Assembly: GCA_019163175.1 (NCBI GenBank)
Contig: JAFLKN010000067.1
Coordinates: forward strand, 1-64,000
Origin: Prolixibacteraceae bacterium
GTDB taxonomy: Bacteria > Bacteroidota > Bacteroidia > Bacteroidales > Prolixibacteraceae
DNA: 64,000 nt
Direction of reading: 5' to 3'
Positions within the stretch are counted from its first letter, which is position 1. Every line of letters starts with the position of its first letter. Made by a program: the position numbers and the translations under genes. The notes under the pieces were generated by a model. It was not told where the DNA came from and searched no databases. It was given only the letters and a program-made list of their open reading frames with translations. Positions 40,154 through 64,000 of the stretch are shown piece after piece.

Positions 40154-40197
40154 TAAAAAAGTGGGAAGCCTGAATCATCAAGCTTCCCACTTTTTTA
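40154..40197. terminator. bidirectional terminator between convergent genes
   Basis: TAAAAAAGTGGGAAGC (40154-40169) pairs perfectly with GCTTCCCACTTTTTTA (40182-40197), flanked by A and T runs, so it works on both strands. The right arm contains the stop codon of the leftward esterase gene (40195-40197). Confidence 0.9.
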
Positions 40198-41205
40198 TTT
40201 GAGGTACTTCTCAAAAAAATCATTCAAGGTAGGTTTGAAATAATCATTTACCCGTTGAACCATGTCCATGGTATGCGGCCAGCCCGGAAGTGGTTTGTAC
40301 ACGCAGGGAATGCCTAGGCTATCCAATTTATCACGCAAGAGTTCGGCCTGACTCATTGGGATCAGTTCATCAGCCGTACCCTGAAGGATTAAAGTTGGAG
40401 GCGAATTTTTATCGACATAGGTAATCGGTGAAGCTTCTTTATACAGTTCAGGTATTTCAGAATATGGCCGGGCCATTAAACCGGTTACAGTAGGGTGATT
40501 TCTGGCATACTCGGTTGTTAAATCAACAGGTCCGTAAATTTCTACAACCGCTTTGATCTTGTGATGTGCTTTTAAGCTGCTTATACTATCAGTTTTCACT
40601 GTATCAGATTCAACCACATGTTTCTTCCAGCCATAGGCGGCCAACATGGCCAAATGCGAACCTGCAGAACCACCGATTAAAGCAATTCGATCTGGATCGT
40701 AGTTGTATTTGTACGAATTCTGAAAGAACCACTCTACTGCATCAGTAATATCTTCGGCGCATGCCGGATATGGAGAATCAGAAATAAACCGATACGATAC
40801 TGTAGCTGTAACATAACCGAGTTTGGCAAAGTGTGTCAGGTAGACCAAATAATCGGAACGTTGACCACCCTTCCAACCTCCACCATGAATAAAGACCAGC
40901 AAGGGCGCCGGTTTGCTCATCTGTTTGGGTTTGTAAAGATCGATTTGCAACGATTTTCCATTGCTGTTTTTGTATTCAATATTTTTTATTTCTTCAACCC
41001 CTTCCGGAACCGCCGGAGCCTTATCAATTAACGATTCCAAGCCTGTAATTACAGCAATAATCGTGGGCGTTTGGTAATAATAGCCCAGTGGCGCTTTTTT
41101 CGGATTTAATGCCGACCATCCTCTCGGAATTAACATCACAACAATAAATGAAGCTAAAAGAATAAGCAACGAATACAGGATACGTTTAAAGATTTTCGAT
41201 TTCAT
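40195..41205 (-). CDS. BD-FAE-like alpha/beta hydrolase esterase, copy 1
   Basis: The start at ATG 41205 (MKSKIFKRILYS) is chosen over a TTG at 41220. The protein has 336 residues with an N-terminal signal or anchor helix (about 5-27). The BD-FAE / hormone-sensitive-lipase type fold has oxyanion HGGGW, nucleophile Ser180 in GGSAG, Asp in GTADELIP and His in WPHTMD. A relative about 60 percent identical by eye is at 49683, and each copy has a ceramidase-like gene nearby. It probably removes acetyl, feruloyl or other acyl groups from a glycan in the periplasm. It is divergent from the plus-strand cluster that begins at 41480. Confidence 0.9.
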   Translation of the reverse strand: MKSKIFKRILYSLLILLASFIVVMLIPRGWSALNPKKAPLGYYYQTPTIIAVITGLESLIDKAPAVPEGVEEIKNIEYKNSNGKSLQIDLYKPKQMSKPAPLLVFIHGGGWKGGQRSDYLVYLTHFAKLGYVTATVSYRFISDSPYPACAEDITDAVEWFFQNSYKYNYDPDRIALIGGSAGSHLAMLAAYGWKKHVVESDTVKTDSISSLKAHHKIKAVVEIYGPVDLTTEYARNHPTVTGLMARPYSEIPELYKEASPITYVDKNSPPTLILQGTADELIPMSQAELLRDKLDSLGIPCVYKPLPGWPHTMDMVQRVNDYFKPTLNDFFEKYLK

Positions 41206-41383
41206 AAGAGTAACTTTCAATGATTTGGATAATCGTATTTTGCTTAGTTAAAGGTCTAAAAATAACAGAACAGCGCAAGCATTACAGATAGAAATTTGTT
41301 CATATTGCAATGAATTTAGACCATGAACCTATTTCCCGATTCAGCTAAAAAAACATTAAAAAAAAACATGATACTTTAATTGA

Positions 41384-41414
41384 TTGATGCCTAAATCTGT
41401 TTCCTTTATATTTC
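41384..41414 (+). promoter_or_regulatory. candidate promoter for the 41480 cluster
   Basis: TTG (41384-41386) and TATATTTC (41407-41414) are 20 bp apart, close to the Bacteroidota -33/-7 arrangement except for a final C in place of G. It lies 65 bp upstream of the CPBP gene. Confidence 0.3.
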
Positions 41415-41479
41415 TGGAAGTTGAATTAAAATACAATCAATCAAAACTTTCATAATTAAATCAGCAAAAACCTAATCCA

Positions 41480-42661
41480 ATGGAAATCACAAAAGATTTA
41501 CTGAATGATTTAAAAAAAAGTGGTGTTTATACCGTTATATTAACCTTATTACTACTTTGGCCTGGCACTGAGGGAATTTCTTCCGGTGTTTTGCTACTCG
41601 CCCTACCCTTCTTTGTTGTACTTTATTTCGTGGTTTTTGCTATCGGACGTGAATCTATCTTATCGGCTATTCAGAGCTGGATCAGAAAAAGAGCAATCCA
41701 TGCATTTCTCTTTCCTGCGGGAATGCTTATTCTCTATACAATTTATCTCCTGATTAACGGTCAGAATCCGCTCGAAGGAAATCCATGGTTGTTGGTATAC
41801 ATTATCTTTTTTCCGGTGCTTGCATTCACTTTGCGTCGCGAAACTTCACAAAAAATTGGCTGGTTCGACTTTACTATTTTCGTCCTGACACTTTTGCCAA
41901 GCGCATTTTTCAGTGTGAAACAATCCAGCGAAATTCCATTTACGGGTGGAGGATTTGACTCGTTTTCGCATATCATGATTCTTTTGACAGGAGTTTATGC
42001 TTTTGCTGTGGTTCGCGGTGTAAAAGAGGTGGGATTCTTTCCCGAATTCAAATTCAATTCTCTGATTACTGCCATTTGGGTATGGTTGGCCTTTTATGCT
42101 TCGGTTTTTGCAATTGGGTATTCAGTCGATTTCATTCAATTTATTGGCTACGACAAAACCTTCGATGTCCTTTTCAAATCCATCTTATTAACCATGATCG
42201 GGACATTTTTGCATACCGCCCTGTTTGAAGAACTTTTTTTCCGGGGTATACTCCAAAATATGCTGGCCCGAAGAATCGGACAAGCCAAATCGTGGAAGAT
42301 ATTCTGGACAATTGGTTTCGTATTTCTATTTTGCTGTGCCATTTTGGTTGGCTATACATTGGAAGGAAAAATGAAATGGTTCCCTGCACTGGTTACTGTT
42401 CTGATTTTTGCTGCCGCATACGTTATCGAGAACTCCCGCAAATTTGAAATGGGCCTTTACACTTCGCTGGCCTTAACCGGAGTAACCTTCGGTCTGGTTC
42501 ATTATCATGCCAAATCAATCATTTACATAGGTTTTGCTTGCATAGCAGGTTGGGCCTACGGATATACCTACATCAAAACGAAGAATGTATTTTACAGCGC
42601 ACTGGTTCACATGTTGGTGAATACTTCAGTTCTGATTTTCGGACTGAAAATGATGCGTTAA
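41480..42661 (+). CDS. CPBP family intramembrane metalloprotease
   Basis: A 393-residue polytopic protein with eight or more hydrophobic helices. The CPBP (CAAX protease/bacteriocin-processing, formerly Abi) motifs are in order: Glu250-Glu251-x3-Arg255 in EELFFRG, a His in GVTFGLVHYH, and a final HMLVNT. All catalytic residues are present. Family members cleave prenylated or signal-type substrates in the membrane or act in self-immunity; the substrate here is unknown. It leads the plus-strand cluster with a 30-bp gap to the ADP-ribosylglycohydrolase-fold gene, so it may be co-transcribed, though its biochemical link to the glycan genes is unclear. Confidence 0.9.
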   Translation: MEITKDLLNDLKKSGVYTVILTLLLLWPGTEGISSGVLLLALPFFVVLYFVVFAIGRESILSAIQSWIRKRAIHAFLFPAGMLILYTIYLLINGQNPLEGNPWLLVYIIFFPVLAFTLRRETSQKIGWFDFTIFVLTLLPSAFFSVKQSSEIPFTGGGFDSFSHIMILLTGVYAFAVVRGVKEVGFFPEFKFNSLITAIWVWLAFYASVFAIGYSVDFIQFIGYDKTFDVLFKSILLTMIGTFLHTALFEELFFRGILQNMLARRIGQAKSWKIFWTIGFVFLFCCAILVGYTLEGKMKWFPALVTVLIFAAAYVIENSRKFEMGLYTSLALTGVTFGLVHYHAKSIIYIGFACIAGWAYGYTYIKTKNVFYSALVHMLVNTSVLIFGLKMMR

Positions 42662-42691
42662 ACCTTTCTACATATTGCTTAATCTGAAACA

Positions 42692-44299
42692 ATGAAATCG
42701 AATCTTTTATTATTGCTATTGATTGTAGGTGTAATGTTCGTTACATCCCGGACTCAGAAAAAAAACACAGTACTAAAAACCATCTCAACAGAAGTTTTAA
42801 AAGATAAAATTGCTGGTGGTTGGGCCGGAAAGATGTTAGGTGTAAGTTACGGAGGGCCTACTGAATTTGATGCGCACGGGTTCATCCTGGAAGATTCCAT
42901 CAAATGGAAACCCTCGGATGTCAACTTTTCACTTCAAGAAGACGATATTTATGTGCAGCTTACTTTTATGATGACGATGGATCAGTACGGAATTGATGCA
43001 CCGGCTAAAAAATTTCAGGAACTTTTTGCCAAGTCGGGTTATAAATTGTGGCATGCCAACGTACAGGCAAGAAAAAACTATTACGACAGCATTTTTCCGC
43101 CACAATCGGGAAGTCCAGAGTTTAACTCGCATGCTGATGATATCGATTTTCAGATTGAGGCCGATTACATTGGATTGATTTGCCCCGGAATGCCTCAAAC
43201 GGCCAATCGCATCGCTGATAAAATTGGGCATATCATGAATTACGGCGATGGCGTTTATGGCGGAGCTTTTGTTGCAGCCCTTTATTCTGAAGCCTATTTT
43301 GAAAGCGATATGCTGAAAATAGTGCAAAATGCGCTGCGTACAATTCCTGTAGAAAGCGATTATTCAAAGATTGTGAATGATGTAATTTTGCTTTACAAAC
43401 AATACCCAAAAGATTGGAAGGCTGCATGGAAAGAGCTGGAAGACAAATGGGCCAACACCGATATGTGCGGGGCCGGTTCAAGCTATAATATCGATGCCAA
43501 ATTTAACGGTGCCTACATTGTGATGGGTCTGCTTTATGGCGATGGCGATCCGTTCAAAACAATGGATATTGCTACCCGCTGCGGGCAAGACTCTGACTGC
43601 AATCCATCCAACGCCATGGCTGTGTTGGGAGTTGTAAAAGGGTTCAGCGCTTTCCCCGCTGAATATCGCGAAAAAGTGCTGGCGATTAAAGATTCGCTTT
43701 TTATAAACACCAATTACTCCTTCTACAAAACAGTTGAAAAAACTTTAGACTATGCCAAAGAGATTACAGTAAAAAACGGAGGCAAAGTTTCTGATGCTGA
43801 ATTAGCCATTAACGTGCAAACTCCTACTCCACTGGCCTTCGAAGAATCATTTCCAAATCTTGTATTTGATCGTCGGGTTAAAGTATCTGAAGAAGGATGG
43901 ACATTTAACGGGAATTGGGAAACACGGAAAAAAGATGATAAAACCATTCAGGATAAAGTGAGTGCCAATGCCGGCGACGAAGCTATTTTCAAGTTTGAAG
44001 GAACTGGAGTTTCGATAGCCGGAAACTGGAACAACAACTGCGGAAAAGCTGATGTATTTGTGGATGGCCAACTAAAAAGAACCATTGACTGTTATTTTCA
44101 CTATTCCAACCAGCACCCCGGCAATGTGAATTTGTACCTGACAACCAACCTTCAGGAAGGGAAACATACTGTTCATGTGGTTGTTAAAGGGGAAAAACGA
44201 ACCGAATCGGAAGGAGCAAATATTTACCTCTCGGAAGCTGTGGTATACAAAACCGGGAAGAAAATAGATAAAGACTTCAAGTTTTCATTTCAGAAATAA
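42692..44299 (+). CDS. secreted ADP-ribosylglycohydrolase-fold protein with jelly-roll domain
   Basis: A 535-residue exported protein (signal to about residue 20). Residues about 30-370 have the all-helical ADP-ribosylglycohydrolase fold: GGWAGKMLGVSYGGPTEF, QEDDIYVQ for the first metal site and GQDSDCNPSN for the second. Residues about 385-520 are a beta jelly roll (FEGTGVSIAGNW ... ADVFVDGQLKR) like carbohydrate-binding modules. Export plus a sugar-binding domain argues against intracellular ADP-ribose removal and for cleavage of an N- or O-glycosidic bond in an external glycan (inference). It sits between the CPBP and ceramidase-like genes. Confidence 0.85.
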   Translation: MKSNLLLLLLIVGVMFVTSRTQKKNTVLKTISTEVLKDKIAGGWAGKMLGVSYGGPTEFDAHGFILEDSIKWKPSDVNFSLQEDDIYVQLTFMMTMDQYGIDAPAKKFQELFAKSGYKLWHANVQARKNYYDSIFPPQSGSPEFNSHADDIDFQIEADYIGLICPGMPQTANRIADKIGHIMNYGDGVYGGAFVAALYSEAYFESDMLKIVQNALRTIPVESDYSKIVNDVILLYKQYPKDWKAAWKELEDKWANTDMCGAGSSYNIDAKFNGAYIVMGLLYGDGDPFKTMDIATRCGQDSDCNPSNAMAVLGVVKGFSAFPAEYREKVLAIKDSLFINTNYSFYKTVEKTLDYAKEITVKNGGKVSDAELAINVQTPTPLAFEESFPNLVFDRRVKVSEEGWTFNGNWETRKKDDKTIQDKVSANAGDEAIFKFEGTGVSIAGNWNNNCGKADVFVDGQLKRTIDCYFHYSNQHPGNVNLYLTTNLQEGKHTVHVVVKGEKRTESEGANIYLSEAVVYKTGKKIDKDFKFSFQK

Positions 44300-44318
44300 G
44301 AATTAAAATTTATTCGAT

Positions 44319-45710
44319 ATGTTGAAAAAAATCGGAATCATTCTTGGGAGTATAGTGGTTATTTTGATCGCGCTGTTTTTTATCCTCACTAAATCAGTTG
44401 ACCAAACGGCTTTCTACAATACTGATTATTACCAGAAAAGCTGCGTGTTGACCGACAGTTTGAAACAATTCAGCTCCTCTGTAACCGACTCGATTCAGGC
44501 AGGATTTGCCAAAGTGAGTATTACGCCCGGCCTAAATAACCCCAGCGATCAAGCCAGTGAAGGGAAATTTAATCAAGTTCCGTTGGCAGGATTTGGTGCG
44601 CGCAAAGGCAAAGCAGCAACCGGCGTACACGACAGTATTTTTGTTAAGGCCGTGGCTTTGAAAGCTGGTGCCCGTACAATCATTTTTGTTGGTTCCGATC
44701 TGCTAATTATGCCACCCAACATCATCGATACCGTAAGCATCATTCTTGAAAAACAAGGCATCTATCGCGATCAGGTCGTTTTTTCGGCATCGCATACCCA
44801 TTCGAGTATTGGTGCATGGGGACCCGGTTTTATAGGCGAACAATTTGCAGGCAAAGCCAACCGAAATATTCAGAAATGGTTGGCCACTCAAATTTCAAAA
44901 GTTGTTCTGGCAGCCGCGGCTGATCTTCAACCTGCACGGATTGGATACGGAACATTCAATGCCGGAGCCTATACCCGAAACCGACTGATTGGAGAGAAGG
45001 GCATAAAAAATGATGATTTCGCTTTCGTTTACCTTGAACAGCGTGCAGGGAAAAAGGCGGTCATGGGATCATTCTCAGCACATTCAACCACTATGGGTGC
45101 CGGAAATATGGAAATTAGCGGAGATTATCCCGGATACTGGCAACGGAAGATGGAAACTACTTCGGTTGATCTGGCTGTATTTTTTGCCGGTTCAGTAGGC
45201 AGCCAAAGTCCGGTTGGTGAAGGAAAAGATTTTGAAAAGCCTAGATTTATTGGCGAAGCGCTGGCTGATAGTCTGAATGTGTATTTGCCCAAAATAAAAA
45301 CAGAGAATTCAATCACACTTTCAGCTGTTTCAGTCAAATTGCCTTTACCCGAATATCACATCAGAATCACGGATCATCGCGGCCTGACAAGTTCTGTCAG
45401 CAAAAAATTAATGCCCTATCCAATGAATCCATACCTGCAGGCAGTCCGAATCGGTCAGTTTGTTTGGATCAGTGCGCCAGCCGATTTTAGTGGCGAATAT
45501 GCAGTCCAGATCAAAAATAACCTGACGGCCAAAGGATTTCAGGCTAATGTTTCCAGTTTTAACGGAAGTTATCTCGGCTATATCATTCCCGGACGATACT
45601 TTTATCTGGATGAATATGAATCGAAAACAATGGGTTGGTTTGGACCAAATATGGGCGAATACACTATGGATGTTATTCGCCGGATTTCGGAAATAGCAAC
45701 AAGTAAATAA
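44319..45710 (+). CDS. neutral/alkaline ceramidase-like hydrolase, copy 1
   Basis: A 463-residue membrane-anchored or exported protein (hydrophobic helix about 4-24). The neutral-ceramidase N-terminal domain pattern is visible: AGFAKVSITPG, LAGFGARKG, and the zinc-site SHTHSSIGAWG. At the catalytic position, where the family consensus is N-x-G-D-x-S-P-N, this protein has S-V-G-S-Q-S-P-V. Ser297 and Pro are kept, while the flanking Asn and Asp are not. Activity on an amide or ester bond is plausible, but true ceramidase activity is uncertain. It lies 19 bp after the ADP-ribosylglycohydrolase-fold gene and 6 bp before the PHP gene, so they form one transcript. Confidence 0.8.
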   Translation: MLKKIGIILGSIVVILIALFFILTKSVDQTAFYNTDYYQKSCVLTDSLKQFSSSVTDSIQAGFAKVSITPGLNNPSDQASEGKFNQVPLAGFGARKGKAATGVHDSIFVKAVALKAGARTIIFVGSDLLIMPPNIIDTVSIILEKQGIYRDQVVFSASHTHSSIGAWGPGFIGEQFAGKANRNIQKWLATQISKVVLAAAADLQPARIGYGTFNAGAYTRNRLIGEKGIKNDDFAFVYLEQRAGKKAVMGSFSAHSTTMGAGNMEISGDYPGYWQRKMETTSVDLAVFFAGSVGSQSPVGEGKDFEKPRFIGEALADSLNVYLPKIKTENSITLSAVSVKLPLPEYHIRITDHRGLTSSVSKKLMPYPMNPYLQAVRIGQFVWISAPADFSGEYAVQIKNNLTAKGFQANVSSFNGSYLGYIIPGRYFYLDEYESKTMGWFGPNMGEYTMDVIRRISEIATSK

Positions 45711-45716
45711 AATTAC

Positions 45717-47018
45717 ATGATTATAAAAGTTTTCAAATACTTGCTACTTCTGATTTTTGGACTGCTCCTGATTGCGCTTATTATTCTTTTTGCAGGTCCA
45801 GTTTGGCGACATTGGGTAACTTACCCGAAATTGGAAAACCAGATCAGCGAGTTTCAGAAACTGCGAAAAGAACCGGTAAAACTGAGCAATCTGAATGTTT
45901 ATCGCGGAGTTCTTCATGCACATAGTTTCTGGTCGCACGATAGCGAAGGAACATTATTCGACATTATTCCGGCAGCAAAAAATGCAGGACTTGAGTTCAT
46001 TTTCCTGACTGATCACCCGCGAGGAAATATTGATACTATACCACGCGGTTACAACGGAAACTACGAAAGAGTTTTGATACAACCGGGAAGTGAAAAGCAG
46101 GGATTCGATTGCTGGCCGCTCGATTCAGTTGTAATTGACTGGAAGCTTAATAAAGATACGATTGCGAAAAATATCGTATCCAATGGCGGAATTATATTTT
46201 ATGCCCACACTGAAGAGCCTCACAACTGGGGCAATCCAGACTACCAGGGCATGGAAATTTACAACTTCCACACCGACACCAAAGACGAAACACTGGCTCC
46301 ACACATTGCAAATTTTCTGGTCAATGGGAACAAATACCGGCCATTGGCACTTCGCGAAATGTTTGATGAGCAAACTCACATTCTGGCCCGTTGGGACTCA
46401 TTGAATATGAAAAGAAAAATTGTTGGTTTCTCGGCAGTTGACACCCACGAGAATCAAAACTTCAGGGCCCGATATTTAAAAGATGGAAGGGTTGAATGGG
46501 TTGGACCAAATGCCAATGTGATTGATACGATGGAAGTAAAATGGTGGAATAAATGGATTTTCAGCAAACCTGACCCGAGTGGCTGGATTTTCAAATTCAT
46601 GGTTGACACATACAACGAAGGATTCAATTACATTACCAACTATGTGCTTGCCGACACGTTATCTGTCTCTTCATTGGCCACAAATCTGAAGAAAGGGCAC
46701 CTTTATACAGCTTTTAAAAGTCTGGCCGATGCCAAAGGTTTTATGTACTATTCGAGAAATGAAAATGACAGTATAAATGCAATTCTGGGAGATTCAGTGC
46801 GAATCGATCAGGTTAAAACACTCGATGCAGTTTCACCTTTTCCGGGTCAGTTCAAGCTAATTCACGACGGAAAAACAGTCAATGTTTCAACTGAAGAAGA
46901 TTACCAGTTTTCATGGAAGGAACAGTTGAAAAAGGGTGCCTACCGCATTGAAATGCACATCAGGTTAAACGGTAAGCTTATCCCTTGGCTGTATAGTAAT
47001 CCAATTTATGTCTATTAA
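45717..47018 (+). CDS. membrane-anchored PHP-domain phosphoesterase-like protein
   Basis: 433 residues with a single N-terminal membrane helix (about 5-28) and the rest outside. The PHP-type metal motifs are visible: His67-Ala-His69 with SHDSEGT, then FLTDHPRG (about 96-103), YAHTEEP and AVDTHEN. A C-terminal beta domain (about 340-433) follows. PHP enzymes hydrolyse phosphate esters with a trinuclear metal site; external members of this type are uncharacterised. It follows the ceramidase-like gene by 6 bp and precedes the beta-helix gene, which suggests a shared substrate. Confidence 0.75.
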   Translation: MIIKVFKYLLLLIFGLLLIALIILFAGPVWRHWVTYPKLENQISEFQKLRKEPVKLSNLNVYRGVLHAHSFWSHDSEGTLFDIIPAAKNAGLEFIFLTDHPRGNIDTIPRGYNGNYERVLIQPGSEKQGFDCWPLDSVVIDWKLNKDTIAKNIVSNGGIIFYAHTEEPHNWGNPDYQGMEIYNFHTDTKDETLAPHIANFLVNGNKYRPLALREMFDEQTHILARWDSLNMKRKIVGFSAVDTHENQNFRARYLKDGRVEWVGPNANVIDTMEVKWWNKWIFSKPDPSGWIFKFMVDTYNEGFNYITNYVLADTLSVSSLATNLKKGHLYTAFKSLADAKGFMYYSRNENDSINAILGDSVRIDQVKTLDAVSPFPGQFKLIHDGKTVNVSTEEDYQFSWKEQLKKGAYRIEMHIRLNGKLIPWLYSNPIYVY

Positions 47019-47061
47019 TTTTTAATTGGCCGCACAAACTATCAATGATAAAAACTCCACT

Positions 47062-48306: not shown

Positions 48307-48334
48307 GAAGTTTGAATCCAATTTGATTAAAACT

Positions 48335-48372: not shown

Positions 48373-48392
48373 ATGCCGTGATCAGGAATGAA

Positions 48393-55018: not shown

Positions 55019-55022
55019 AGGT

Positions 55023-55814
55023 TTATTTTTTAGAATCATTTTTCTTGTAAAATTTCACATAGTCTACAACAAATACATCCGGGAAAATGCTTTTTGCAAT
55101 TTCTTCTTTTTTCGCGGGATATTCCATGCTTAGGATCATGTATTCTTCGATATTTGAAATACCGGCAGTCACCTCATAAAATTTGTATCCGTCAACGTAA
55201 AAAATGTATTTATCAGGAAGCCACTCCAATCCAAATGTATGAAAACCTTCACCCAAACCTTTTAAATAGCTTTGCATACCGTGTGTTGATTGCTGATGTG
55301 GTCCGTAAGCCCAATGCACATTGTGCGAAACAATATCATCACCCAGTTTTCTAAAGCACTCCATAATATCGATTTCGGCGCCATAAACGGCGGGGTCTTC
55401 GCCCTGTGAAATTTTTGCCGACTGAATCCAGAAAGCTGCCCAAACGCCAGCTGGCGATTTCTGAACCTGGGCACGGCATTCGTAGTAACCAAACTTCGAC
55501 ATAAACAAACCCTGTGTTCCAATAGCGCTTCCAAGCAAGGTATCACCTTTCTGCAAAGCATACAATTTTACGCAGCCATTCTCAACTTTAATTGCTTTTT
55601 CGGTTACATAAGCAATAGCTCTTTGACCGACTCCACGCACTTTCCATTTGGTCGAATCCAGCTTATTCCCATTAAATTCATCGGCCCAAAATAGTTTGTA
55701 ACCCAACTCTTCGGGAGTATATTTCTTATCGGAAACAGGTCCCTGTGCAGGTCTTTGTGCCTGAGAAATAAACGATAAAACAAATGCTGCAAAAATGAAA
55801 AGGATATGCTTCAT
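55023..55814 (-). CDS. GH16 family glycoside hydrolase
   Basis: A 263-residue secreted enzyme (signal to about residue 19) of normal GH16 length. The active-site signature Glu147-I-Asp149-I-M-Glu152 is complete, with Glu147 as nucleophile and Glu152 as acid/base. The YKLFWADEFNGNKLDSTKW opening and FHTFGLEWLPDKYIFYVDG further support the family. GH16 enzymes cut internal beta-1,3 or beta-1,4 links in glucans or galactans (laminarin, agar, carrageenan, porphyran). The exact specificity is not visible. It lies 4 bp from each neighbour in the minus-strand cluster. Confidence 0.95.
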   Translation of the reverse strand: MKHILFIFAAFVLSFISQAQRPAQGPVSDKKYTPEELGYKLFWADEFNGNKLDSTKWKVRGVGQRAIAYVTEKAIKVENGCVKLYALQKGDTLLGSAIGTQGLFMSKFGYYECRAQVQKSPAGVWAAFWIQSAKISQGEDPAVYGAEIDIMECFRKLGDDIVSHNVHWAYGPHQQSTHGMQSYLKGLGEGFHTFGLEWLPDKYIFYVDGYKFYEVTAGISNIEEYMILSMEYPAKKEEIAKSIFPDVFVVDYVKFYKKNDSKK

Positions 55815-55818
55815 AGTT

Positions 55819-57192
55819 TTAATCTAGCCTGATATGAAAAATTTGCTTTTTGCCATCTTTACTACCTTCAACAGCTACGGAGCGGTTAAAGGCGATTGTT
55901 TTGCCATCGTTCGACAACACAATGTTCGATAACTCAACCTCCGAAGGTGCTGTTAATCTCCTGAAGCGCTTTTCAAACGGGCGGTCAGAAACTTCGCAAA
56001 CTACAATGATGTTGTCCCAAATGTAATAAACGAACTTATTATCCGGACTCCAGCGCACACCGCTTTGCACCGAAGATGTGTGTTCGGTCAATTGATCCGG
56101 ATTTTCACCAAGTGGCGAAATCAGAAAAACCTGCTGAATTCCATTCTCATCTTTGGCCAGATAAGAAATCTGACTGCCATCAGACGAAGAGCGGACAACG
56201 CCCCCGCAACCAGGAAATTTACTTTCAGCTGTAAACGTTAATCTTCGTTGAACGGTGCCTTTGGGTGGCATCGGAAACGAATTCAGGGTTCCTTCCAGTG
56301 GACCAAACTCACCGGGAACATTAATCGAATCAGGAATATCGACCACAAAAAGTTCGTCAACCGGCTGTCCATTCTTGTTATTTACTTTTCCGATAAAAGC
56401 ACGTGCTACCTGAAGGGTTCCATCCGCCTTTTTATAGCCACTTGCGCCAATCCAGCTATCGGAGGCAGCATTGCTGATTTCGTCACTTTCGGGTGCCGGA
56501 TTAGGAACGACATGAACAACAACTGCGCTGTACCATTCGCCCTGCACATTTTCCTGAGCAGCGTCCTGATCAACCTTAGCCTTATGTTTTTGATTGGAAA
56601 CGGCGATTGTCCTTAAATTCCATTTCACGCCGGTAGAGTCTTCCAGATGTTTCATGATGGCATCATTGTAAGTGTACCCTACCCATTTGCCGTCTCGGCT
56701 CCATTCGTGGCGATGAGTTCCTCCGCGCAAAGCTCCTGCTGTAAAAGGATAAGTTACATCCCGCGAATCCATAGTAATTGGCACGTTTGGCTGGTCATCG
56801 CTGACCATAACACCAGTTCGGCGCCATTGCTGGTAAGGATTTTCCGTAGTGCAAATTGGCAATCCGTGAATAAATATTACCTTATTTTCAATTGGATGAT
56901 AACTAACTGCTCCTGCACCAGGACCATAATCCTGATTATTTGGTATTCCGAATAAAACTTCAGTTTTGCCGGTTTCAATATTTACCCGCTCAACCGAAGG
57001 GCTCCCTCCAATACCACCAATACCGGTGCGGGTATCGTAAACCAACCATTTTCCGTCGGGCGAAAAATTGTCGTTATTATCCAAATCATGATTTTGGGTT
57101 GTATCGAAAGTGAGTTGAATCTCTTTCAAATAGGATTGATTGGAAGTACACGATGCAAAAAGCAATAGGCCGAATAGAAGTTTATTTCTCAC
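55819..57192 (-). CDS. DUF3748 / TolB-like propeller lipoprotein
   Basis: A 457-residue lipoprotein (lipobox LFASC, Cys15). The repeats NFSPDGKWLVYD, HEWSRDGKWVGYTYND, VRWSPDNKFVYYIWD and VLSNDGKTIAFN are PD40/TolB-type blades, giving a six-bladed propeller. The DUF3748 pattern (NQDYGPGAGAVSYHP, TYPFTAGALRGGTHRHEW) covers most of the chain. No known activity is established for this family. His-rich THRHEW might be a metal or catalytic site. It is translationally close (4 bp) to GH16, which suggests joint action on the same glycan. Confidence 0.8.
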   Translation of the reverse strand: MRNKLLFGLLLFASCTSNQSYLKEIQLTFDTTQNHDLDNNDNFSPDGKWLVYDTRTGIGGIGGSPSVERVNIETGKTEVLFGIPNNQDYGPGAGAVSYHPIENKVIFIHGLPICTTENPYQQWRRTGVMVSDDQPNVPITMDSRDVTYPFTAGALRGGTHRHEWSRDGKWVGYTYNDAIMKHLEDSTGVKWNLRTIAVSNQKHKAKVDQDAAQENVQGEWYSAVVVHVVPNPAPESDEISNAASDSWIGASGYKKADGTLQVARAFIGKVNNKNGQPVDELFVVDIPDSINVPGEFGPLEGTLNSFPMPPKGTVQRRLTFTAESKFPGCGGVVRSSSDGSQISYLAKDENGIQQVFLISPLGENPDQLTEHTSSVQSGVRWSPDNKFVYYIWDNIIVVCEVSDRPFEKRFRRLTAPSEVELSNIVLSNDGKTIAFNRSVAVEGSKDGKKQIFHIRLD

Positions 57193-57295
57193 AGTTTATT
57201 CGCATTAGGATTGTAGCTAAAATATAGTTGAAGCATCTGATAAGCTTCGTTTATTTTAAGCAAAGCACATTAAATCTTACCCTGAAATCAATGAA

Positions 57296-58855
57296 TTAGA
57301 GTTCTTTCTTTTCAGCTTTGTCCACTTTTGTATCAGTCACACCTTTTACCTGATGAGTTGAGAAATTCGTGACATTTTTGAGAATGAACTGAGGCGCTCC
57401 CTCTCCTTTTTGAGCATCGATATTGTAAAAATGTGCATCGTGCACATCATCAAGCACAAAAGCAGGGCGCTCGTCGCGGTTCATATAGCGCAACACCACA
57501 TCGCTCACCCGCAAGCCTTTTACATACCTGAAATACATTCCATAAGCAGGTAAGGAATGCCATCGATAGGGATCGGGATACATGTCAACATTTTGAGCAA
57601 CTTCCTTATCAATCGCCTCTTTCGATGCACCTGCGCGATAATAAATCCGGATATTGCTCAAGGTCAAATCTTCAATGTAATGATCAGGAATACCCATCAC
57701 CATTCCGGCGCCAACTTCAGGGAACTTTGGTCGGCCACCAACATCATACACATTAATATTGCTGAATGTAATGCGCCTACAAACGCCAACAGGAGTTCCT
57801 TCCGGACCACGCATACGCGCACTCAGCCGGATAAAGAAAGGTGTATCGGTCACATCGCGCATGGTAATGTTGTCGATAACCACATCTTCAATGATTCCGC
57901 CATCGGCTGTTTCAATACAGATTCCGCGCGAATGCTCAAATACACAATTGGAAACGGCAATATTCTTAAATCCGCCGTTCGATTCGGTTCCCATTTTCAA
58001 CCGGCCGGTAATGCTGTGCTTTGCATTTGGATCCTCATCTTTAAATTCAGTTTTGAAGGTTCCGTCAATCAAAGTTCCATGATCGTAGCCGTACACATGG
58101 CAATTGGTAATAGTTACATTTTCGGTAGCCCGTGCGTAACCCAATCCAAACGACGATTTCAGGCAAAGACCGTCATCAGTTGGTGAGTTAATGTTGCAGT
58201 TTGAAATGCGCACATTTTTGCAACAATCGATATCAAACGCATCACGGTCGGCATCGGCACGAACATTATCAATAGTCAGGTTATCGACACCCGTAGCCAG
58301 AATACAGAAGTGTCCACCATGAAGAATAGAGATGTCTCTGATCGTCACATTGAAGCAATTCTTCAAGCCAATGGCTTTGTTTCCGGAGCCTTTCATGTCG
58401 GGTTTATCATAGGTATACAAACCTTTACCCCAAATCATTCCATTGCCCGTAATAGCAATGTCGCGAAGACTGTCGCCATAAATCAGGCTGTTTTTCCAAT
58501 AGCTGTGTCCAAAATCCTGAAACTTTTTGTACCAGGCATCAGCTTCAGGCAAGTCATACCCTACTCCATTCACTTCCTGATCGCCAATCAAAACCGCTCC
58601 CTGATCCAGATGAAGTGTGATTTTACTTTTCATACGAATGGTATACGAAAGAAAATTTCCGGCAGGAAAGAAAACGGTACCGCCTCCATTTTTTGCCGCA
58701 GCCACAATTGCAGCATTAATCGCCTTGGTATTGTTGGTTTTCCCATCTCCTTTGGCTCCAAAATCGACCACATTGTAAAATGCCTCTTTTGCCGAGACTG
58801 ACACCACTACAAAAAAAATAAGTAGTGCTGATAAAATAATTCTATTGTTCTTCAT
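57296..58855 (-). CDS. GH28 polygalacturonase-like glycoside hydrolase
   Basis: A 519-residue secreted protein (signal to about residue 22). The typical GH28 start (VVDFGAKGDGKTNNTKAINAAI) is followed by a right-handed beta-helix. The catalytic Asp cluster is visible around residues 203-232: DRDAFDIDCC and SPTDDGLCLKSS. A further H-containing rung (YDHGTLIDG) and GTESNGGFKNI lie where the active-site Gly-His and Arg-Lys strands occur. Substrates in the family include galacturonan and rhamnogalacturonan exo-ends and other uronosides. It is in the minus-strand cluster, 35 bp after the fucosidase gene and 103 bp before the DUF3748 gene. Confidence 0.93.
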   Translation of the reverse strand: MKNNRIILSALLIFFVVVSVSAKEAFYNVVDFGAKGDGKTNNTKAINAAIVAAAKNGGGTVFFPAGNFLSYTIRMKSKITLHLDQGAVLIGDQEVNGVGYDLPEADAWYKKFQDFGHSYWKNSLIYGDSLRDIAITGNGMIWGKGLYTYDKPDMKGSGNKAIGLKNCFNVTIRDISILHGGHFCILATGVDNLTIDNVRADADRDAFDIDCCKNVRISNCNINSPTDDGLCLKSSFGLGYARATENVTITNCHVYGYDHGTLIDGTFKTEFKDEDPNAKHSITGRLKMGTESNGGFKNIAVSNCVFEHSRGICIETADGGIIEDVVIDNITMRDVTDTPFFIRLSARMRGPEGTPVGVCRRITFSNINVYDVGGRPKFPEVGAGMVMGIPDHYIEDLTLSNIRIYYRAGASKEAIDKEVAQNVDMYPDPYRWHSLPAYGMYFRYVKGLRVSDVVLRYMNRDERPAFVLDDVHDAHFYNIDAQKGEGAPQFILKNVTNFSTHQVKGVTDTKVDKAEKKEL

Positions 58856-58890
58856 TGGTAGTTAATAGTTTACAATTCAAAATTTAGGTA

Positions 58891-60183
58891 TTACCTATAG
58901 GCTGGCACCGATTCTTTCGGTTCACCTTCGAAAGTGAGTTCAATTACATTCAAATAGGGATCAGTCGGTTGATTAGGCAAATCGTGTAACCAAACACGGT
59001 CGCCTTTTTGTTCGATTTTAGCCATTTGTCCGGTAGCCAACAAACAGGCTGATTTCACCTTGCTGCCGCACCAGGCAAAAGGAACAGTAGATCCGGGCCA
59101 ACGCTGAATCAGTAGATAGACTTTATCTTTTACCCGGCTGGTCATGCCCAGATTGGGGGCAACTATAGGTGAAGGTCCTGCTGAATAAATAGCCTTGCCA
59201 TTCAGTTTCATCCACTTTCCAATGTTTTTCAATATCTCGACCTGTTCTGTGGGTAGTGTTCCCTCTCCATCGGGGCTCACATTCAGCAAAAAATTACCGC
59301 TTTGCGAAGCACAGGAAGCCAGCAATCGCAGAATTTCATTGACGGGTTTATAATTGCGATCGAATGGTGCGTAACCCCAGGTACGGTTCATGCAAAAGCA
59401 GGATTCCCATGGTCTGGATTGCGCAGTCACAGCATTTTCAGGTGTAGCAAAATCGCCCGGCAAACCGGAACGATCGTTAATCAGAATCTCAGGCTGAAGT
59501 TTCCGCGCCATTTCCAACAATTCTTCCGAGCGCCAGCCTTCCGGACCATCAACGGTTAAACCATCAAACCACAAAACATCAACAGTACCATAATTGCTCA
59601 ATAACTCGCGAACCTGGTCTCTGGCCTGATCGGCAAGCAGTTCCATCGTTTTGGCATTTAATGGCGATCCCTGTGGCAAAACTCCGGGGAAATGCCAATC
59701 CTGAAGGGAATAATAAAATCCCATTCGCATTCCCGCTTCGTGACAGGCATCTGCAAATTCTTTAATCAAATCATGCTTAGCTCCGGTTTTATTTGCAGTA
59801 AAGTCGGATACTTTGCTATCAAATAAACAAAAACCATCATGATGCCTTGTGGTCAAAACCACATATTTCATTCCGGCATCTTTAGCCATGGCAACCCATT
59901 CCTTTGGATTGTATTTCTGAGGATTAAACTGATCAGCAAGTTTTGCATATTCAGGAAAAGGTACATGCTCCTGATACATCAGCCATTCGCCCCGCCCCGG
60001 AATGGAATACAATCCCCAGTGGATAAACATCCCGAACCGGGCATCCTGCCACCATTGAATTTTAGAATTTGTTGGGTCCTGATTCGCTTTAATATCAACA
60101 TATTGAGCCATTGTATGACTGGCAAATAGAAAAAATGTTATTGCCAGCGTAACCAACCTTATCGATTTTTTTGCTTTGTGCAT
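58891..60183 (-). CDS. GH29 alpha-L-fucosidase
   Basis: A 430-residue secreted enzyme (signal cut near HTMAQ). The GH29 hallmarks are WWQDARFGMFIHWGLYSIPG near the N-terminus, VVLTTRHHDGFCLFDS, GFYYSLQDWHFP, and the nucleophile Asp207 in VLWFDG. It has the catalytic barrel and a short C-terminal beta domain but no extra binding module. It releases terminal alpha-L-fucose from oligosaccharides. It lies in the minus-strand cluster between the GDPD and GH28 genes, 43 and 35 bp away. Confidence 0.95.
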   Translation of the reverse strand: MHKAKKSIRLVTLAITFFLFASHTMAQYVDIKANQDPTNSKIQWWQDARFGMFIHWGLYSIPGRGEWLMYQEHVPFPEYAKLADQFNPQKYNPKEWVAMAKDAGMKYVVLTTRHHDGFCLFDSKVSDFTANKTGAKHDLIKEFADACHEAGMRMGFYYSLQDWHFPGVLPQGSPLNAKTMELLADQARDQVRELLSNYGTVDVLWFDGLTVDGPEGWRSEELLEMARKLQPEILINDRSGLPGDFATPENAVTAQSRPWESCFCMNRTWGYAPFDRNYKPVNEILRLLASCASQSGNFLLNVSPDGEGTLPTEQVEILKNIGKWMKLNGKAIYSAGPSPIVAPNLGMTSRVKDKVYLLIQRWPGSTVPFAWCGSKVKSACLLATGQMAKIEQKGDRVWLHDLPNQPTDPYLNVIELTFEGEPKESVPAYR

Positions 60184-60226
60184 ATAGAGTATTTTTGCTT
60201 GAGTGAAATTTTCCTGACTATTTCAA

Positions 60227-61144
60227 TTATTTTCTGCTTTTTAAAAACTTAATCAATGCCTCCGGATCATCAGTCTGGATGCCATCCGTTCCCCATTGAA
60301 TAATTTGCTCCCATTCCGCAGAAGTTCCCTTTTCTTCATCTACAAAAACTTTCAAATTATTGGCATGTGCTGTTTTTACGAAACTTTCATTCAATTGTCC
60401 CATATCGCTGGCTAATGCCTGTGGATTAATCTGGGAAACAACTTCCTGAATATTCTTTTCTGTCCCAGGATCGGGCATCGGAATACATTCTGGACAAAGG
60501 TTTTGGAGCTGTTTGATAATCTCCATTCGCGATGCCGGAATATACCAGATGATCTGGCTTTCCATATCGTATTTATGAATAATCTGAAGCAATTCAGGAA
60601 CAAGTGGTTCTTTTAAATCGAGGTAAATACCAATCTGACCACGACACAACTGCAGAATTTCTTCGATAGTTGAAATGCGTGTATTCTTCCAATCCGGACC
60701 TATTTTTTCTCCAATGTCCATCTGTTTGAGTTCTGCAAGCGTGTAATCCTTTACCTTTCCGGTTTTACCAATAACATACGCATCAATAGTCGTATTGTGA
60801 ACACTAACAATGTGCCCGTCTTTGGTCATCCGCGTATCAATTTCAACAAAATCGCAACCCAGATCAATCGCCCTTTGAATAGCTGGCAATGAATTTTCAG
60901 GAATGCCAACATGGGCTCCCCGGTGTGCAATAACATACACATTGCCGTTTCTTGGTTTGGAAAAATTATTATTTGATTCTGCATTAACTTTACCATTGAA
61001 AGTTTTGGAATTATTTGATTCCGAAACAACCGACTCTTTCAGAAGTGTCGTTTGTGCAATCAGTTTATTCTGTTGCTCTGCAATTAAAGCAGCAATAATG
61101 AAACAGAATATGAGATTTTTTTTGTTTTGTATTTTCATTTTCAA
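60227..61144 (-). CDS. secreted glycerophosphodiester phosphodiesterase (GDPD) family protein
   Basis: A 305-residue exported protein (hydrophobic segment about 10-25, SignalP-like end near LIAQ). The catalytic motifs are AHRGAHVGIPENS, FVEIDTRMTKDGHIVSVHN with both catalytic His and the metal-binding Glu/Asp, and LKEPL. These give a complete GDPD active site. Family members split glycerophosphodiesters into glycerol-3-phosphate and an alcohol; some act on lysosphingolipid-type or teichoic-acid-type diesters. Its place between GH92 and GH29 is odd for phospholipid turnover and suggests a phosphodiester within the glycan substrate (inference). Confidence 0.92.
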   Translation of the reverse strand: MKMKIQNKKNLIFCFIIAALIAEQQNKLIAQTTLLKESVVSESNNSKTFNGKVNAESNNNFSKPRNGNVYVIAHRGAHVGIPENSLPAIQRAIDLGCDFVEIDTRMTKDGHIVSVHNTTIDAYVIGKTGKVKDYTLAELKQMDIGEKIGPDWKNTRISTIEEILQLCRGQIGIYLDLKEPLVPELLQIIHKYDMESQIIWYIPASRMEIIKQLQNLCPECIPMPDPGTEKNIQEVVSQINPQALASDMGQLNESFVKTAHANNLKVFVDEEKGTSAEWEQIIQWGTDGIQTDDPEALIKFLKSRK

Positions 61145-61171
61145 AATTAAAATCAGTTAATCAAAAGAATA

Positions 61172-64000
61172 CTATTTATTTTCGAGATGAAAGAAAGCAC
61201 TGGCCGGGATTTCCTGTGTAGGGATTCCGGGGCCATTCCAACTTATAACATTAAATTTCCGTGCTCCCAACTGGAAATATTTTTCCAGAACCTGATATTT
61301 TCCTTTCCGAAGGGCGATCGTTTTTTGGCCTCCACTCAGGAATTTCTTACCGTCGAGATACAGCGTACAACGGTCGTTTACTTTTATCGAAAAGGTATAA
61401 ATGCCGTCACGTGAAATATCCAGAAAACCAGACCAGATGTAACCAAAATAGTCTTCCCGCTTACGATTTTCAATCGTGAGATTGGGTATAATTCCGGCTT
61501 CAAGCGGAGTCAGTTTATCCAGATCATCTTCGTCCATCACTTGGGCATGGTAATATTTATAGTTCAGACCTTTCATAAAATTGCCACTACCCTCATAATT
61601 TCTGAAACCCTCAAATTCGAGTTTGTTTACCTGAACAGCAACCGGTACACTTGGCATAACGCCTGATTTGTAAGCTACAAACCGCAAGTTAGTAGTTTTA
61701 TCAAGAACTACGGGTTCTGAATAAAGCTGTGATTTTTCTGTTGGCCGACTGCCATCAGTTGTATAGTAAATCTTAGCTTCCGCATCATCACATTTCAGAA
61801 TTATTTTGCCCGTTTTAAGAAAATACTCATCGGTGGTAACCGCATAAGGAAGCGAAACCGCCGCTTCATATTTTTCACTGGCCGGACGATCCTCTATTGC
61901 TTCGGCCCAGTTCTTGTTTGGACTTGCGCCCATTTCAAAAACCAATTCGGAACCATTCAGAATATCGTTATGTGTAAACCATGATTTGGTATAAATCGCA
62001 CCGTTAAGCGTTGCTGACTGAATGTGTTTGTTGTCGGGCGAGGCATTCGTTGTTCGCACTATAAAATCTTTCCCATTCTCTAAATGGATAGTTATCCGGT
62101 CAAAAATCGGACTTCCGATCACATATTCCGGAGTTCCAGGGCAAACCTGATAAAATCCCATCGCACTTAAAATGTACCAGGCTGACATTTGTCCACAGTC
62201 TTCGTTTCCGCTCAAACCATTGGGTTGACCGTCGTACATAGTATCCAGAATCTGCCGGACGATAGCCTGCGTTTTCCATGGAGCGCCGGCGTAATTGTAC
62301 AAATAAGCCATGTGGTGACTCGGTTCATTGCCGTGTGCATACTGTCCAATCAAGCCTGAAGCATCAATCACATTTTCGTCGTGTTTCGATTGCTTGGTAA
62401 ACAGGGTATCCATCCAGGATATAAATTTCTCATCACCACCAATCAGGTTAATCAGCCCATTCACATCCTGCGGTGCAAAAAGACTGTACTGAAACGAGTT
62501 TCCTTCCACAAAATGCTCGCTTCCTTCCGAAGGATCGAAAGGAGTCACCCATTTCCGGTCAGAATTTTTGGGGCGCATAAAGCCAGTTGACGGGTCAAAC
62601 ATGTTTTTATAGAATTGCGACCGGTAGCTGTAGTCATGAAAATCTTCTTCCTTGTTCAACAATTTGGCCATCCGCGAAACACTCCAATCGTTATAGGCAT
62701 ATTCCATCACCATCGAAACCGAACCTCCAACTTTATCGGCCGGAATAAATCCTAAATCTTTGTATAAACCAATGTTCTGGACCCGCTTCTTCATGGCTTC
62801 GAAAGCCAGTTCCGCATCAAATCCACGGATTCCTTTAGTGTAGCCATCCAATATTACCGAATGCGTATGATAGCCAATCATTACAGCAGTATTGTTTCCG
62901 GCGAGTTCCCATTGCGGCAAAATCCCGCCTACCTTGTACATCTCCAGAAAAGTCAGGATAAATTCCTGATACCGGTTGGGATCGATAATGGTGTAAAGCG
63001 GCATGTTAGCCCTGAAAGTATCCCACAACGAAAAGACCGTGTAGTTGGTAAAGCCTTTTGCCTCATGAATCTGGTGATCAATTCCTCGGTAGCGATTGTC
63101 AACATCCTGAAATATGTTGGGAGATATGGCCGTGTGATACAATCCGGTGTAAAAAATCCGGCGTTGCTTTTCAGTTCCGCCTTCCACATCTATTTTCGAC
63201 AAAAAAGTATTCCAGTCCTCTTTGGCTTTATTTACTACTTTTTCAAAATCCCAATCCGGAATTTCCGCTTCGAGGTTCTTCTTTGCACCGGCAACATCTA
63301 CTGCCGAAATCCCTATTTTCACCAAGACTTCTTCATTTGCTTTGGTCTGAAACTGAACAAAAGCGCGGATATTCTGCCCTTCAGCCTTTTGAATTCCATC
63401 AACCAAAGTATCATTCAGTGCAATACCTGATTTGATAAATGGTTTCGAAAATTTGGCATAGAAATAAACATACTGATCCTCGGCCCAGCGACGTGACCGG
63501 CGCAATCCCTGAATTTCAGTATCGCTGATAATTTCAATATTCGATTCAAGTACATGATCCCGGTTTTTCAGGTCGATAATAACATTTGAATGTTCGGAAG
63601 CTGGAAATGTATAGCGGTGAAAACCTGCACGCGTAGTTGCTGTCAGTTCAGCTTTGACATGATCATCGTCTAACAGAACGCTGTAATAACCGGGCGAAGC
63701 ATGTTCGTTTTCATGTTTGAAAGCCGAACGGTAGCCTTCTTTTGGGCTATTCTCATCTCCGGGCAGAATCTGTACATGGCCAACTGTGGGCATTAAAAGC
63801 ACATCGCAATATTCCGGAGCTCCGGTGCCGCTCAAGTGGGTCTGGCTGAATCCCATGATGGTTTTATCGGAATAGTGATAACCTGAAGAGCCATCCCAGT
63901 CTTCCCAACGCGTATCCGGACTGATCTGCACCATTCCAAACGGTACAGTTGCTCCGGGAAACGTATGCCCATGCCCACCTGTACCGATCATTGGGTCGAC
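61172..64000 (-). CDS. GH92 alpha-mannosidase with C-terminal PA14 domain, 5' truncated
   Basis: The frame is open to the window edge. Codons before the first visible ATG (63991) read V-D-P, giving the usual GH92 opening VDPMIGTGGHGHTFPG, so only the signal peptide is missing and the internal ATG is not the start. About 943 residues are present. The beta-sandwich and alpha/alpha-barrel GH92 core (to about 700) includes ALWDTFRANMP-like and GNEDCGQMSAWYILSAMG motifs of the catalytic site. A chitobiase-C-like domain (about 715-780; IYYTTDGSRPT) and a PA14 domain (about 795-935; NDRCTLYLDGK) follow. It is a calcium-dependent exo-alpha-mannosidase and the first visible gene of the minus cluster. 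Confidence 0.95.
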   Translation of the reverse strand, partial: VDPMIGTGGHGHTFPGATVPFGMVQISPDTRWEDWDGSSGYHYSDKTIMGFSQTHLSGTGAPEYCDVLLMPTVGHVQILPGDENSPKEGYRSAFKHENEHASPGYYSVLLDDDHVKAELTATTRAGFHRYTFPASEHSNVIIDLKNRDHVLESNIEIISDTEIQGLRRSRRWAEDQYVYFYAKFSKPFIKSGIALNDTLVDGIQKAEGQNIRAFVQFQTKANEEVLVKIGISAVDVAGAKKNLEAEIPDWDFEKVVNKAKEDWNTFLSKIDVEGGTEKQRRIFYTGLYHTAISPNIFQDVDNRYRGIDHQIHEAKGFTNYTVFSLWDTFRANMPLYTIIDPNRYQEFILTFLEMYKVGGILPQWELAGNNTAVMIGYHTHSVILDGYTKGIRGFDAELAFEAMKKRVQNIGLYKDLGFIPADKVGGSVSMVMEYAYNDWSVSRMAKLLNKEEDFHDYSYRSQFYKNMFDPSTGFMRPKNSDRKWVTPFDPSEGSEHFVEGNSFQYSLFAPQDVNGLINLIGGDEKFISWMDTLFTKQSKHDENVIDASGLIGQYAHGNEPSHHMAYLYNYAGAPWKTQAIVRQILDTMYDGQPNGLSGNEDCGQMSAWYILSAMGFYQVCPGTPEYVIGSPIFDRITIHLENGKDFIVRTTNASPDNKHIQSATLNGAIYTKSWFTHNDILNGSELVFEMGASPNKNWAEAIEDRPASEKYEAAVSLPYAVTTDEYFLKTGKIILKCDDAEAKIYYTTDGSRPTEKSQLYSEPVVLDKTTNLRFVAYKSGVMPSVPVAVQVNKLEFEGFRNYEGSGNFMKGLNYKYYHAQVMDEDDLDKLTPLEAGIIPNLTIENRKREDYFGYIWSGFLDISRDGIYTFSIKVNDRCTLYLDGKKFLSGGQKTIALRKGKYQVLEKYFQLGARKFNVISWNGPGIPTQEIPASAFFHLENK

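Follow-up and report, generated by a model that had tools for sequence, protein, structure and literature searches.

The closest described counterparts of the locus discussed here are the polysaccharide utilization loci (PULs) of Bacteroidota and, for its individual parts, the neutral ceramidases of solved structure (2ZWS and 4WGK), the BT4146-type rhamnogalacturonidases of family GH28, and the NPC4 and AcpA-type phosphoesterases of family PF04185, to which we take NPC4 to belong. Deacylated glycerophosphodiesters and lysolipids are the substrates of GDPD enzymes, and the BD-FAE family is known for feruloyl esterases. Plant NPC4 hydrolyses glycosyl-inositol-phosphoryl-ceramides (GIPC) (PMC9837106), and in fungi, too, a GIPC phospholipase C has been described, as a member of a putative sphingomyelinase family (PMC11496612). 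The present locus lies on contig JAFLKN010000067.1 of a 5.9-Mb genome from a Prolixibacteraceae bacterium (assembly GCA_019163175.1); the first 64000 of the 66578 bases of this contig constitute the window, i.e. the whole stretch of DNA that was analysed. Like PULs, it possesses adjacent SusC and SusD genes (33698-38700), lipoproteins, glycosidases of families GH92, GH29, GH28, GH16 and GH31, an MFS carrier and two facing arms. Unlike PULs, however, it encodes ten hydrolases that by their fold would act on acyl, amide or phosphodiester bonds (counting two genes beyond the window), as opposed to five glycosidases; several hydrolases are probably membrane-anchored. The Pfam matches of both arms include no regulator of the hybrid two-component (HTCS), SusR or ECF type; a PocR-domain histidine kinase lies at 25839. 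Among the matches listed for GIPC, Bacteroides and PUL, for ceramidase and PUL, or for GH92 or mannosidase and glycerophosphodiester phosphodiesterase, the open-licence literature yielded no paper on such a locus.

What kind of substrate would call for this combination of hydrolases? The answer that we prefer, while holding it at somewhat less than an even chance, is that the locus encodes a PUL-like system directed at an acylated glycoconjugate that contains a phosphodiester; the likeliest candidates are a mannosyl glycophospholipid or what is left of it after deacylation (of the phosphatidylinositol (PI)-mannoside, glycosylphosphatidylinositol (GPI) or GIPC type) and a mannosyl glycan bearing phosphoglycerol. 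PI-mannosides, GPI anchors, GIPC and phosphoglycerol-bearing glycans would all be examples of such a compound. A bolder version, which would make the locus a lipid counterpart of PULs, namely that SusC/SusD-driven utilization of a glycophospholipid relies on a recurrent set of esterases, ceramidase-fold zinc amidases or esterases and phosphodiesterases, that the glycosidases are interchangeable, and that fusions of GDPD or an esterase with a mannosidase dismantle one molecule, strikes us as rather doubtful. Because the hydrolase folds recur together and their homologues are fused, a phosphorylated, acylated glycoconjugate is a reasonable target; to this extent the original prediction, which had proposed a glycolipid or a phosphorylated glycan, is supported, whereas the ceramide part of it is not, as discussed below.

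The fusions join mannosidase, phosphodiesterase and acyl-hydrolase folds, which argues that these probably act on one molecule. In genome G043, a protein of 1244 aa consists of a GDPD domain followed by a GH92 domain (63.6% and 63.9% identical to the respective window proteins), and the same contig carries a relative (50% identical) of CerA, one of the two ceramidase-fold proteins of the window, the other being CerB. Since the order of the two domains is reversed with respect to the window genes and no internal signal peptide is visible by eye, this protein is not the product of a lost stop codon. A second one, of 2002 aa in G058, combines DUF3089 (64.7% identical to the DUF3089 protein encoded next to the window) with one GH92 domain (81.4%) and then another. 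GDPD is also fused to BD-FAE, in G707 as seen with Pfam and in G250 as seen with BLAST, at 34-36% (GDPD) and 28-32% (BD-FAE) identity to the window genes. The G707 cassette comprises SusC, SusD, PF10142, BD-FAE and GDPD-BD-FAE, followed within it by a GH127; in G250 the fusion stands beside a PF10142 protein (53%) and a protein of the CerC type (70%; CerC is a third ceramidase-fold gene, see below), whose PF04734 score of 24.2 bits is below the cut-off of 32.1. The DUF3089 and BD-FAE domains of these fusions suggest acyl esters at least as much as amides. By BLAST, no GH92 was found in the long frames with GDPD homologues of G208, G122, G079, G095 and G662. The GDPDs of G058 and G001 (L046:3611-5740 and L118:1163-3289) carry an N-terminal extension of ~440 aa without a Pfam match, which by eye resembles an alpha/alpha-barrel glycosidase.

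The association is also seen in gene distances, measured in 14 of the 16 genomes holding CerB (picked for CerB; G008 and G538 were omitted). Rows of one protein were merged (35 to 34 for GDPD, 41 to 28 for PF04185), and GH92 positions represent 150 of 176 matches, so that observed and expected values alike are lower bounds. GDPD lay within 10 kb of GH92 in at least 9 of 34 cases, the G043 fusion and the window among them, versus at least 1.45 expected (P ~8e-6), and away from contigs with Cer genes in at least 6 of 29 versus at least 1.22 (P ~1e-3); for PF04185 the figures were at least 6 of 28 versus at least 1.35 (P ~2e-3) and, away from Cer contigs, at least 5 of 21 versus at least 1.00, all P values being optimistic because uniform spacing was assumed and the general clustering of catabolic genes ignored. 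In G159, moreover, SusC, SusD, YncE-PF04185 and GDPD genes are consecutive (26, 24, 73 and 34% identical to those of the window).

Is the locus then a unit? The search for CerB covered 61 genomes, 18 of which matched at some strength, and the named genome collection, which contributed 19 loci; the neighbourhoods of CerB and CerA matches were mapped by BLAST to the window proteins. The named CerB relatives come from Prolixibacteraceae and from other Bacteroidales or Bacteroidota metagenome genomes. Duplicates (L024 = G008, L026 = G058, L038 = G029) were removed by eye, near-identical species were kept separate, and two contigs with CerA but without CerB (G022 C286 and G029 C146) do not enter the count, which leaves 31 distinct CerB loci besides the window; many are short and cut off by contig ends, hence all counts are lower bounds. 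The commonest partners are BD-FAE (at least 18), DUF3748 (at least 12), YncE-PF04185 and SusD (at least 11 each) and SusC (at least 10), followed by CerA and PF10142 (at least 9 each), MFS (at least 7) and GH92, GH29 and GH31 (at least 5 each), and finally by GDPD (at least 4), GH16 (at least 3) and GH28 (at least 2). Relatives of CerA at 43% identity or more are present in 7 of 295 genomes of the order, the window's own included (some match occurs in 17); all seven carry a CerB-type frame of 519-548 aa, five of them on the same contig. The facing layout is retained in G001, G004, G019, G058 and G540, where the hydrolases are ~55-90% identical to those of the window and SusC and SusD merely 27-33%. 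Together with the proximity of GDPD to GH92, this recurrence speaks for an arrangement that is not due to chance. In several relatives the gene after CerA, or after the PHP gene next to it, is CerC; the window genome carries a CerC relative on another contig. The glycosidases, by contrast, vary from locus to locus, with an alpha-L-rhamnosidase in G004, GH2 in G019, GH20 in L028 and GH97 in L033. Much of the locus is thus found again among Bacteroidales, where folds that hydrolyse ester, amide and phosphodiester bonds keep company with one or another glycosidase; it is a real, partly conserved system.

At E <= 1e-100 in 395 genomes of the class, the window SusD found only its own genome among the matches listed, no more than 3 candidates being scored in the listed genomes; in G707, which belongs to the same class but to a different order, SusC and SusD are 62% and 66% identical to those of the window, and close SusD relatives exist in 7 of the 244 genomes searched from the G707 family.

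Do CerA and CerB act on ceramide at all? The AlphaFold2 models (mean pLDDT 71.2 for CerA and 77.5 for CerB, several segments with active-site residues being below 50) place both proteins in the neutral-ceramidase fold. In Foldseek, four ceramidase chains top both lists (E 2e-20 to 7e-15, query TM 0.54-0.57, identity 12-19%), CerA matching the Pseudomonas aeruginosa enzyme 2ZWS at E 2.1e-20 and CerB the human enzyme 4WGK at E 1.0e-16; for CerA, the matches better than E 0.001 also include three methionine adenosyltransferase chains, at low probability. The zinc ligands of 2ZWS, which we take to be H97, H204, E411 and Y448 (numbering counted on the alignment), have counterparts in 44 of 44 CerA, CerB and CerC sequences, with Asp in place of Glu in 9 of 10 CerA. 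The position of the serine presumed to be the nucleophile of this fold is, however, Ser in all 10 CerA (S297 in the window), Met in all 28 CerB and Val in all 6 CerC. Judged by alignment, CerA has every ceramidase catalytic residue tested. Both proteins depart from neutral ceramidases in that no C-terminal ceramidase domain was matched by Pfam in CerA (463 aa) or CerB (519 aa); the NCBI ceramidase model (cut-off 1200) gave 25.7 bits for CerB and no match for CerA and, across 247 genomes of the phylum, some match in 8 and none over the cut-off. In a further 26 ceramidase-fold proteins from the fetched loci (at least 380 aa, at most 45% identical to CerA, CerB or CerC), the four ligands are always present, the third being Glu in 23 and Asp in 3, and the serine position is occupied by N (7), T (5), S (5), A (3), G (2) and, once each, E, K, R and D. 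Given a constant metal site and a varied serine position, the Pfam label means a zinc hydrolase of this fold and not a ceramidase; a diversified hydrolase family seems to be hidden beneath it.

The phosphoesterase encoded at 52259 departs from its known relatives in another way, its PF04185 domain being placed after a YncE-type propeller. In 13 aligned sequences, one row of which is incomplete, E522 and N523 are invariant and H742, D789 and D790 nearly so. The key residues of NPC4 are E23, N24, H79, T158, H264, D299 and E300 (PMC9837106); by eye, the five positions correspond to E23, N24, H264, D299 and E300, T158 cannot be placed, and the best Pfam stretches skip the central part of the domain, in which the nucleophile would be expected.

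The gene families (Table 1) were assigned by a Pfam scan of 38 window proteins, together with NCBIfam profiles. The plus-strand arm runs from SusC through SusD, PF10142, CPBP, ADP-ribosylglycohydrolase, CerA and PHP to the protein of no family, with a minus-strand BD-FAE gene interposed between PF10142 and CPBP; the minus-strand arm leads from beyond the window's far end down to 48393, and comprises, in order of position, MFS, BD-FAE, CerB, YncE-PF04185, GH16, DUF3748, GH28, GH29, GDPD and GH92. Beyond the 5' end of GH92, at contig position 64081, follow a beta-lactamase-fold gene and then a gene ending at 66387, which is called DUF3089 on account of 82% identity over 309 aa to a Pfam-scanned DUF3089 protein. 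The facing clusters that had been recognized at 40195-64000 are real, but their bounds were drawn too narrowly: the plus-strand arm begins with SusC at 33698, the gene at 40195 is the minus-strand BD-FAE, and the other arm passes the window end. Pfam likewise bears out the placing of GH92, GDPD, GH29, GH28, GH16, PF04185, both ceramidase-fold proteins, MFS and ADP-ribosylglycohydrolase, as well as the calcineurin-like and PA14 domains at 22128. All families named earlier are there, but the BD-FAE at 49683, DUF3748 at 55819 and the protein at 47026, which has no match in the Pfam and NCBIfam scans, had been passed over, and the PHP protein, though found where it was said to be, scores below cut-off (19.9 bits against 26.4 for PF02811; 43.3 against 80 for the CehA/McbA model NF038032).

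Table 1. Genes of the locus and its flanks, in window coordinates
Feature	Position	Strand	Profile match and remarks
GH31 alpha-glycosidase family	30069..31850	-	PF01055 140.6 bits
PKD-domain protein, candidate surface binding protein	32598..33521	+	PF18911, PF00801
SusC-type TonB-dependent outer-membrane receptor	33698..37036	+	PF13715, PF07715
SusD-like lipoprotein, PF12771 type	37036..38700	+	237.3 bits; lipobox
PF10142 PhoPQ-related protein	38782..40137	+	355.2 bits; in 7/9 other loci with CerA and CerB
BD-FAE type esterase	40195..41220	-	PF20434 197.8 bits; hydrophobic N-terminus (hydropathy 2.69) read as membrane anchor
CPBP/Rce1-like polytopic membrane protein	41480..42661	+	PF02517 49.1 bits
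ADP-ribosylglycohydrolase fold	42692..44299	+	PF03747 98.5 bits; same place in G001, G022
CerA, ceramidase-fold zinc hydrolase, probable membrane anchor	44319..45710	+	PF04734 47.6 bits
PHP-type (CehA/McbA-like) metallohydrolase, probable membrane anchor	45717..47018	+	sub-cut-off matches; hydropathy 3.19
No-family protein, by eye secreted beta-helix	47026..48306	+	end of plus-strand arm
MFS carrier, Spinster/sugar-acid-transporter neighbourhood	48393..49634	-	PF07690 198 bits
BD-FAE type esterase, probable membrane anchor	49683..50675	-	PF20434 189.2 bits; hydropathy 2.85
CerB, ceramidase-fold zinc hydrolase, probable membrane anchor	50684..52243	-	PF04734 33.8 bits (cut-off 32.1)
YncE-type propeller + PF04185 phosphoesterase	52259..55039	-	PF04185 39.2 bits (cut-off 23)
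GH16 glycosidase family	55023..55814	-	PF00722 54.1 bits
DUF3748 lipoprotein, frequent CerB partner	55819..57192	-	PF12566 120 bits; lipobox; 12/31 CerB loci
GH28, BT4146-type rhamnogalacturonidase by model	57296..58855	-	Pfam 45.6 bits; NF049898 659.8 bits (cut-off 500)
GH29 alpha-L-fucosidase family	58891..60183	-	PF01120 308.5 bits
GDPD phosphodiesterase	60227..61144	-	PF03009 95.7 bits (cut-off 23.6)
GH92 alpha-mannosidase family with CHB_HEX_C and PA14	61172..64000, on to contig 64081	-	PF07971 610.9 bits

CerA, CerB, the PHP protein and both BD-FAE proteins have strongly hydrophobic N-termini (mean hydropathy 2.5-3.2) without a lipobox, compared with 1.6-2.2 for GH16, GH28, GH29 and GH31; on hydropathy and lipobox inspection, these starts are probably inner-membrane anchors. 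The CerA of the relative L026 differs in having a lipobox-like start. One can thus envisage that the compound would be taken up by SusC/SusD, that BD-FAE, DUF3089 and PF10142 (presumably of alpha/beta-hydrolase fold) would remove ester-bound acyl groups, and that the ceramidase-fold, BD-FAE and PHP enzymes, which begin with a hydrophobic helix, would work on the periplasmic side of the inner membrane. The phosphodiester would be cleaved by the PF04185 enzyme and GDPD and the sugars cut off by glycosidases, GH92 and GH29 among them, and the MFS carrier would import the products.

The best relatives of the carrier in the PDB are SPNS1 (71.7 bits), SPNS2 (56.5) and DgoT (46.9), and it scores 138.5 bits against TIGR00893 (cut-off 395); a role as a sphingolipid transporter was considered, Spinster proteins being the best solved matches, yet sugar-acid transporters match too and we do not rely on it. 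Nothing specific to inositol, glucuronate or sphingoid bases was found, IolD being the one inositol marker tested: it reached 262.9 bits in the window genome, where nothing passed the cut-off of 715, and every one of the 14 control genomes likewise gave matches to this family, 3 of them above the cut-off. The GH31 gene adjoins the SusCD arm and has a relative in four of the nine other loci with both CerA and CerB; its identification as a sulfoquinovosidase was considered because PRK10426 (YihQ) matched, and was rejected since the scores of the xylosidase model and of YicI are higher. Relatives of the PKD-domain protein occur in 9 of the 31 CerB loci. The 42692 protein has a C-terminal CE2_N-like stretch (PF17996, 22.7 bits, below the cut-off of 27.9), and a DUF4838 protein at 19284-21845 with a weak GH67 N-terminal match has a 63% identical copy beside the GH31-CerA arm of G058 (L045).

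Could the locus serve a more ordinary substrate? It is conceivable, albeit unlikely, that its target is a wall polysaccharide (rhamnogalacturonan, arabinogalactan or a mixed pectic glycan), that the esterases remove acetyl and feruloyl groups, and that the proteins of phosphoesterase and ceramidase fold are accessory hydrolases for other decorations. This reading is kept alive by the GH28 enzyme, which exceeds the cut-off of the BT4146-type rhamnogalacturonidase model, just as the original prediction had conceded that GH28 and GH16 also fit such a polysaccharide, and by the alpha-L-rhamnosidase of G004 and the GH127 of G707; GH29 and GH16, the relatives of GH28 in L031 and G032, the GH97 close to one CerB relative and the naming of BD-FAE after a feruloyl esterase all point the same way. 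Yet the GH28 gene lies in the company of phosphodiesterases and GH92, the arms gave no match to a rhamnogalacturonan or pectate lyase family (the 47026 protein could be a beta-helix enzyme), and GDPD occurs in fusions with both GH92 and BD-FAE; wall-polysaccharide loci are not known to need GDPD or PF04185. Less probable still are mannose- and fucose-bearing N-glycans or phosphorylated mannans of fungi, plants or algae, from which GDPD would strip phosphoglycerol or phosphodiester caps with no lipid involved. GH92 and GH29 together, and the fusion and proximity of GDPD and GH92, would suit them, and breakdown of plant N-glycans by gut Bacteroides has been described (PMC9522356); but neither a GH18 nor a GH85 endo-N-acetylglucosaminidase family is found among the 38 scanned proteins, and the many acyl-hydrolase folds and hydrophobic N-termini would go unexplained. 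Most improbable in our estimation is plant, algal or fungal GIPC itself, with PF04185 cutting the phosphodiester and the ceramidase-like proteins the amide. The activity of NPC4, the catalytic residues of CerA and the Spinster relatives of the carrier, which include sphingosine-1-phosphate transporters, are in its favour, but the serine replaced in CerB and CerC, the unmatched C-terminal domain, the distant NCBI model, the lack of an IolD over the cut-off and the sugar-acid transporters that match the carrier as well all speak against it.

The preferred reading of an acylated glycoconjugate with a phosphodiester has to face objections of its own, to which the optimism of the proximity values and the wall-polysaccharide glycosidases just mentioned belong. 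The close GDPD subfamily is narrow: matches occur in 326 of 395 genomes of the phylum, and the best one outside the own genome is 40% identical among the matches listed. With GDPD counted in at least 4, GH92 in at least 5 and CerA in at least 9 of the 31 CerB loci, the window brings together modules that are also found separately, and SusC/SusD identities as low as those in the other CerA loci mean that the import pair changes too. Among the seven genomes with close SusD relatives, GDPD is present just in G707 and G1096 and a CerC-type gene just in G1237, within the stretch read, and the SusD-relative loci of G1096 and G1239 hold GH20. The YncE-PF04185 gene of G058 (contig C14, 35585-36360, L045) is broken by one stop, through decay or an assembly error; the esters may be small, given the feruloyl esterase activity for which BD-FAE enzymes are known; and some CerB copies adjoin a xylose-isomerase-like protein, an aldo/keto reductase or GH97.

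Several neighbourhoods deserve mention in their own right. CerB copies in L033, L035, L037, L038 and L042 lie near members of a 428-aa protein family (window 10680), L042 also having the xylose-isomerase-like protein and aldo/keto reductase and L033 the GH97, which suggests a non-lipid role there. The CerB loci L044 (G019), L058 (G043) and L101-L102 (G511) share a DegT aminotransferase, a Gfo/Idh oxidoreductase, a ROK-type protein (by eye) and GH2, a recurrent set which may mean that the products include an amino sugar or aminocyclitol. A separate cluster at 929-13069 of the window contains two regulator-propeller proteins, a TonB receptor, a BNR protein, a BT_1020-type propeller with a sialidase-like CBM and a 3-keto-disaccharide hydrolase.

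What would follow if the glycophospholipid interpretation were true? Bacteroidota would then feed on the glycolipids of plants, fungi, algae or bacteria by means of dedicated loci, as they do on polysaccharides, and bacterial proteins labelled 'neutral ceramidase' by their fold would need a new reading. The GDPD-GH92 and GDPD-BD-FAE fusions are single, testable enzymes that may be able to name the substrate.

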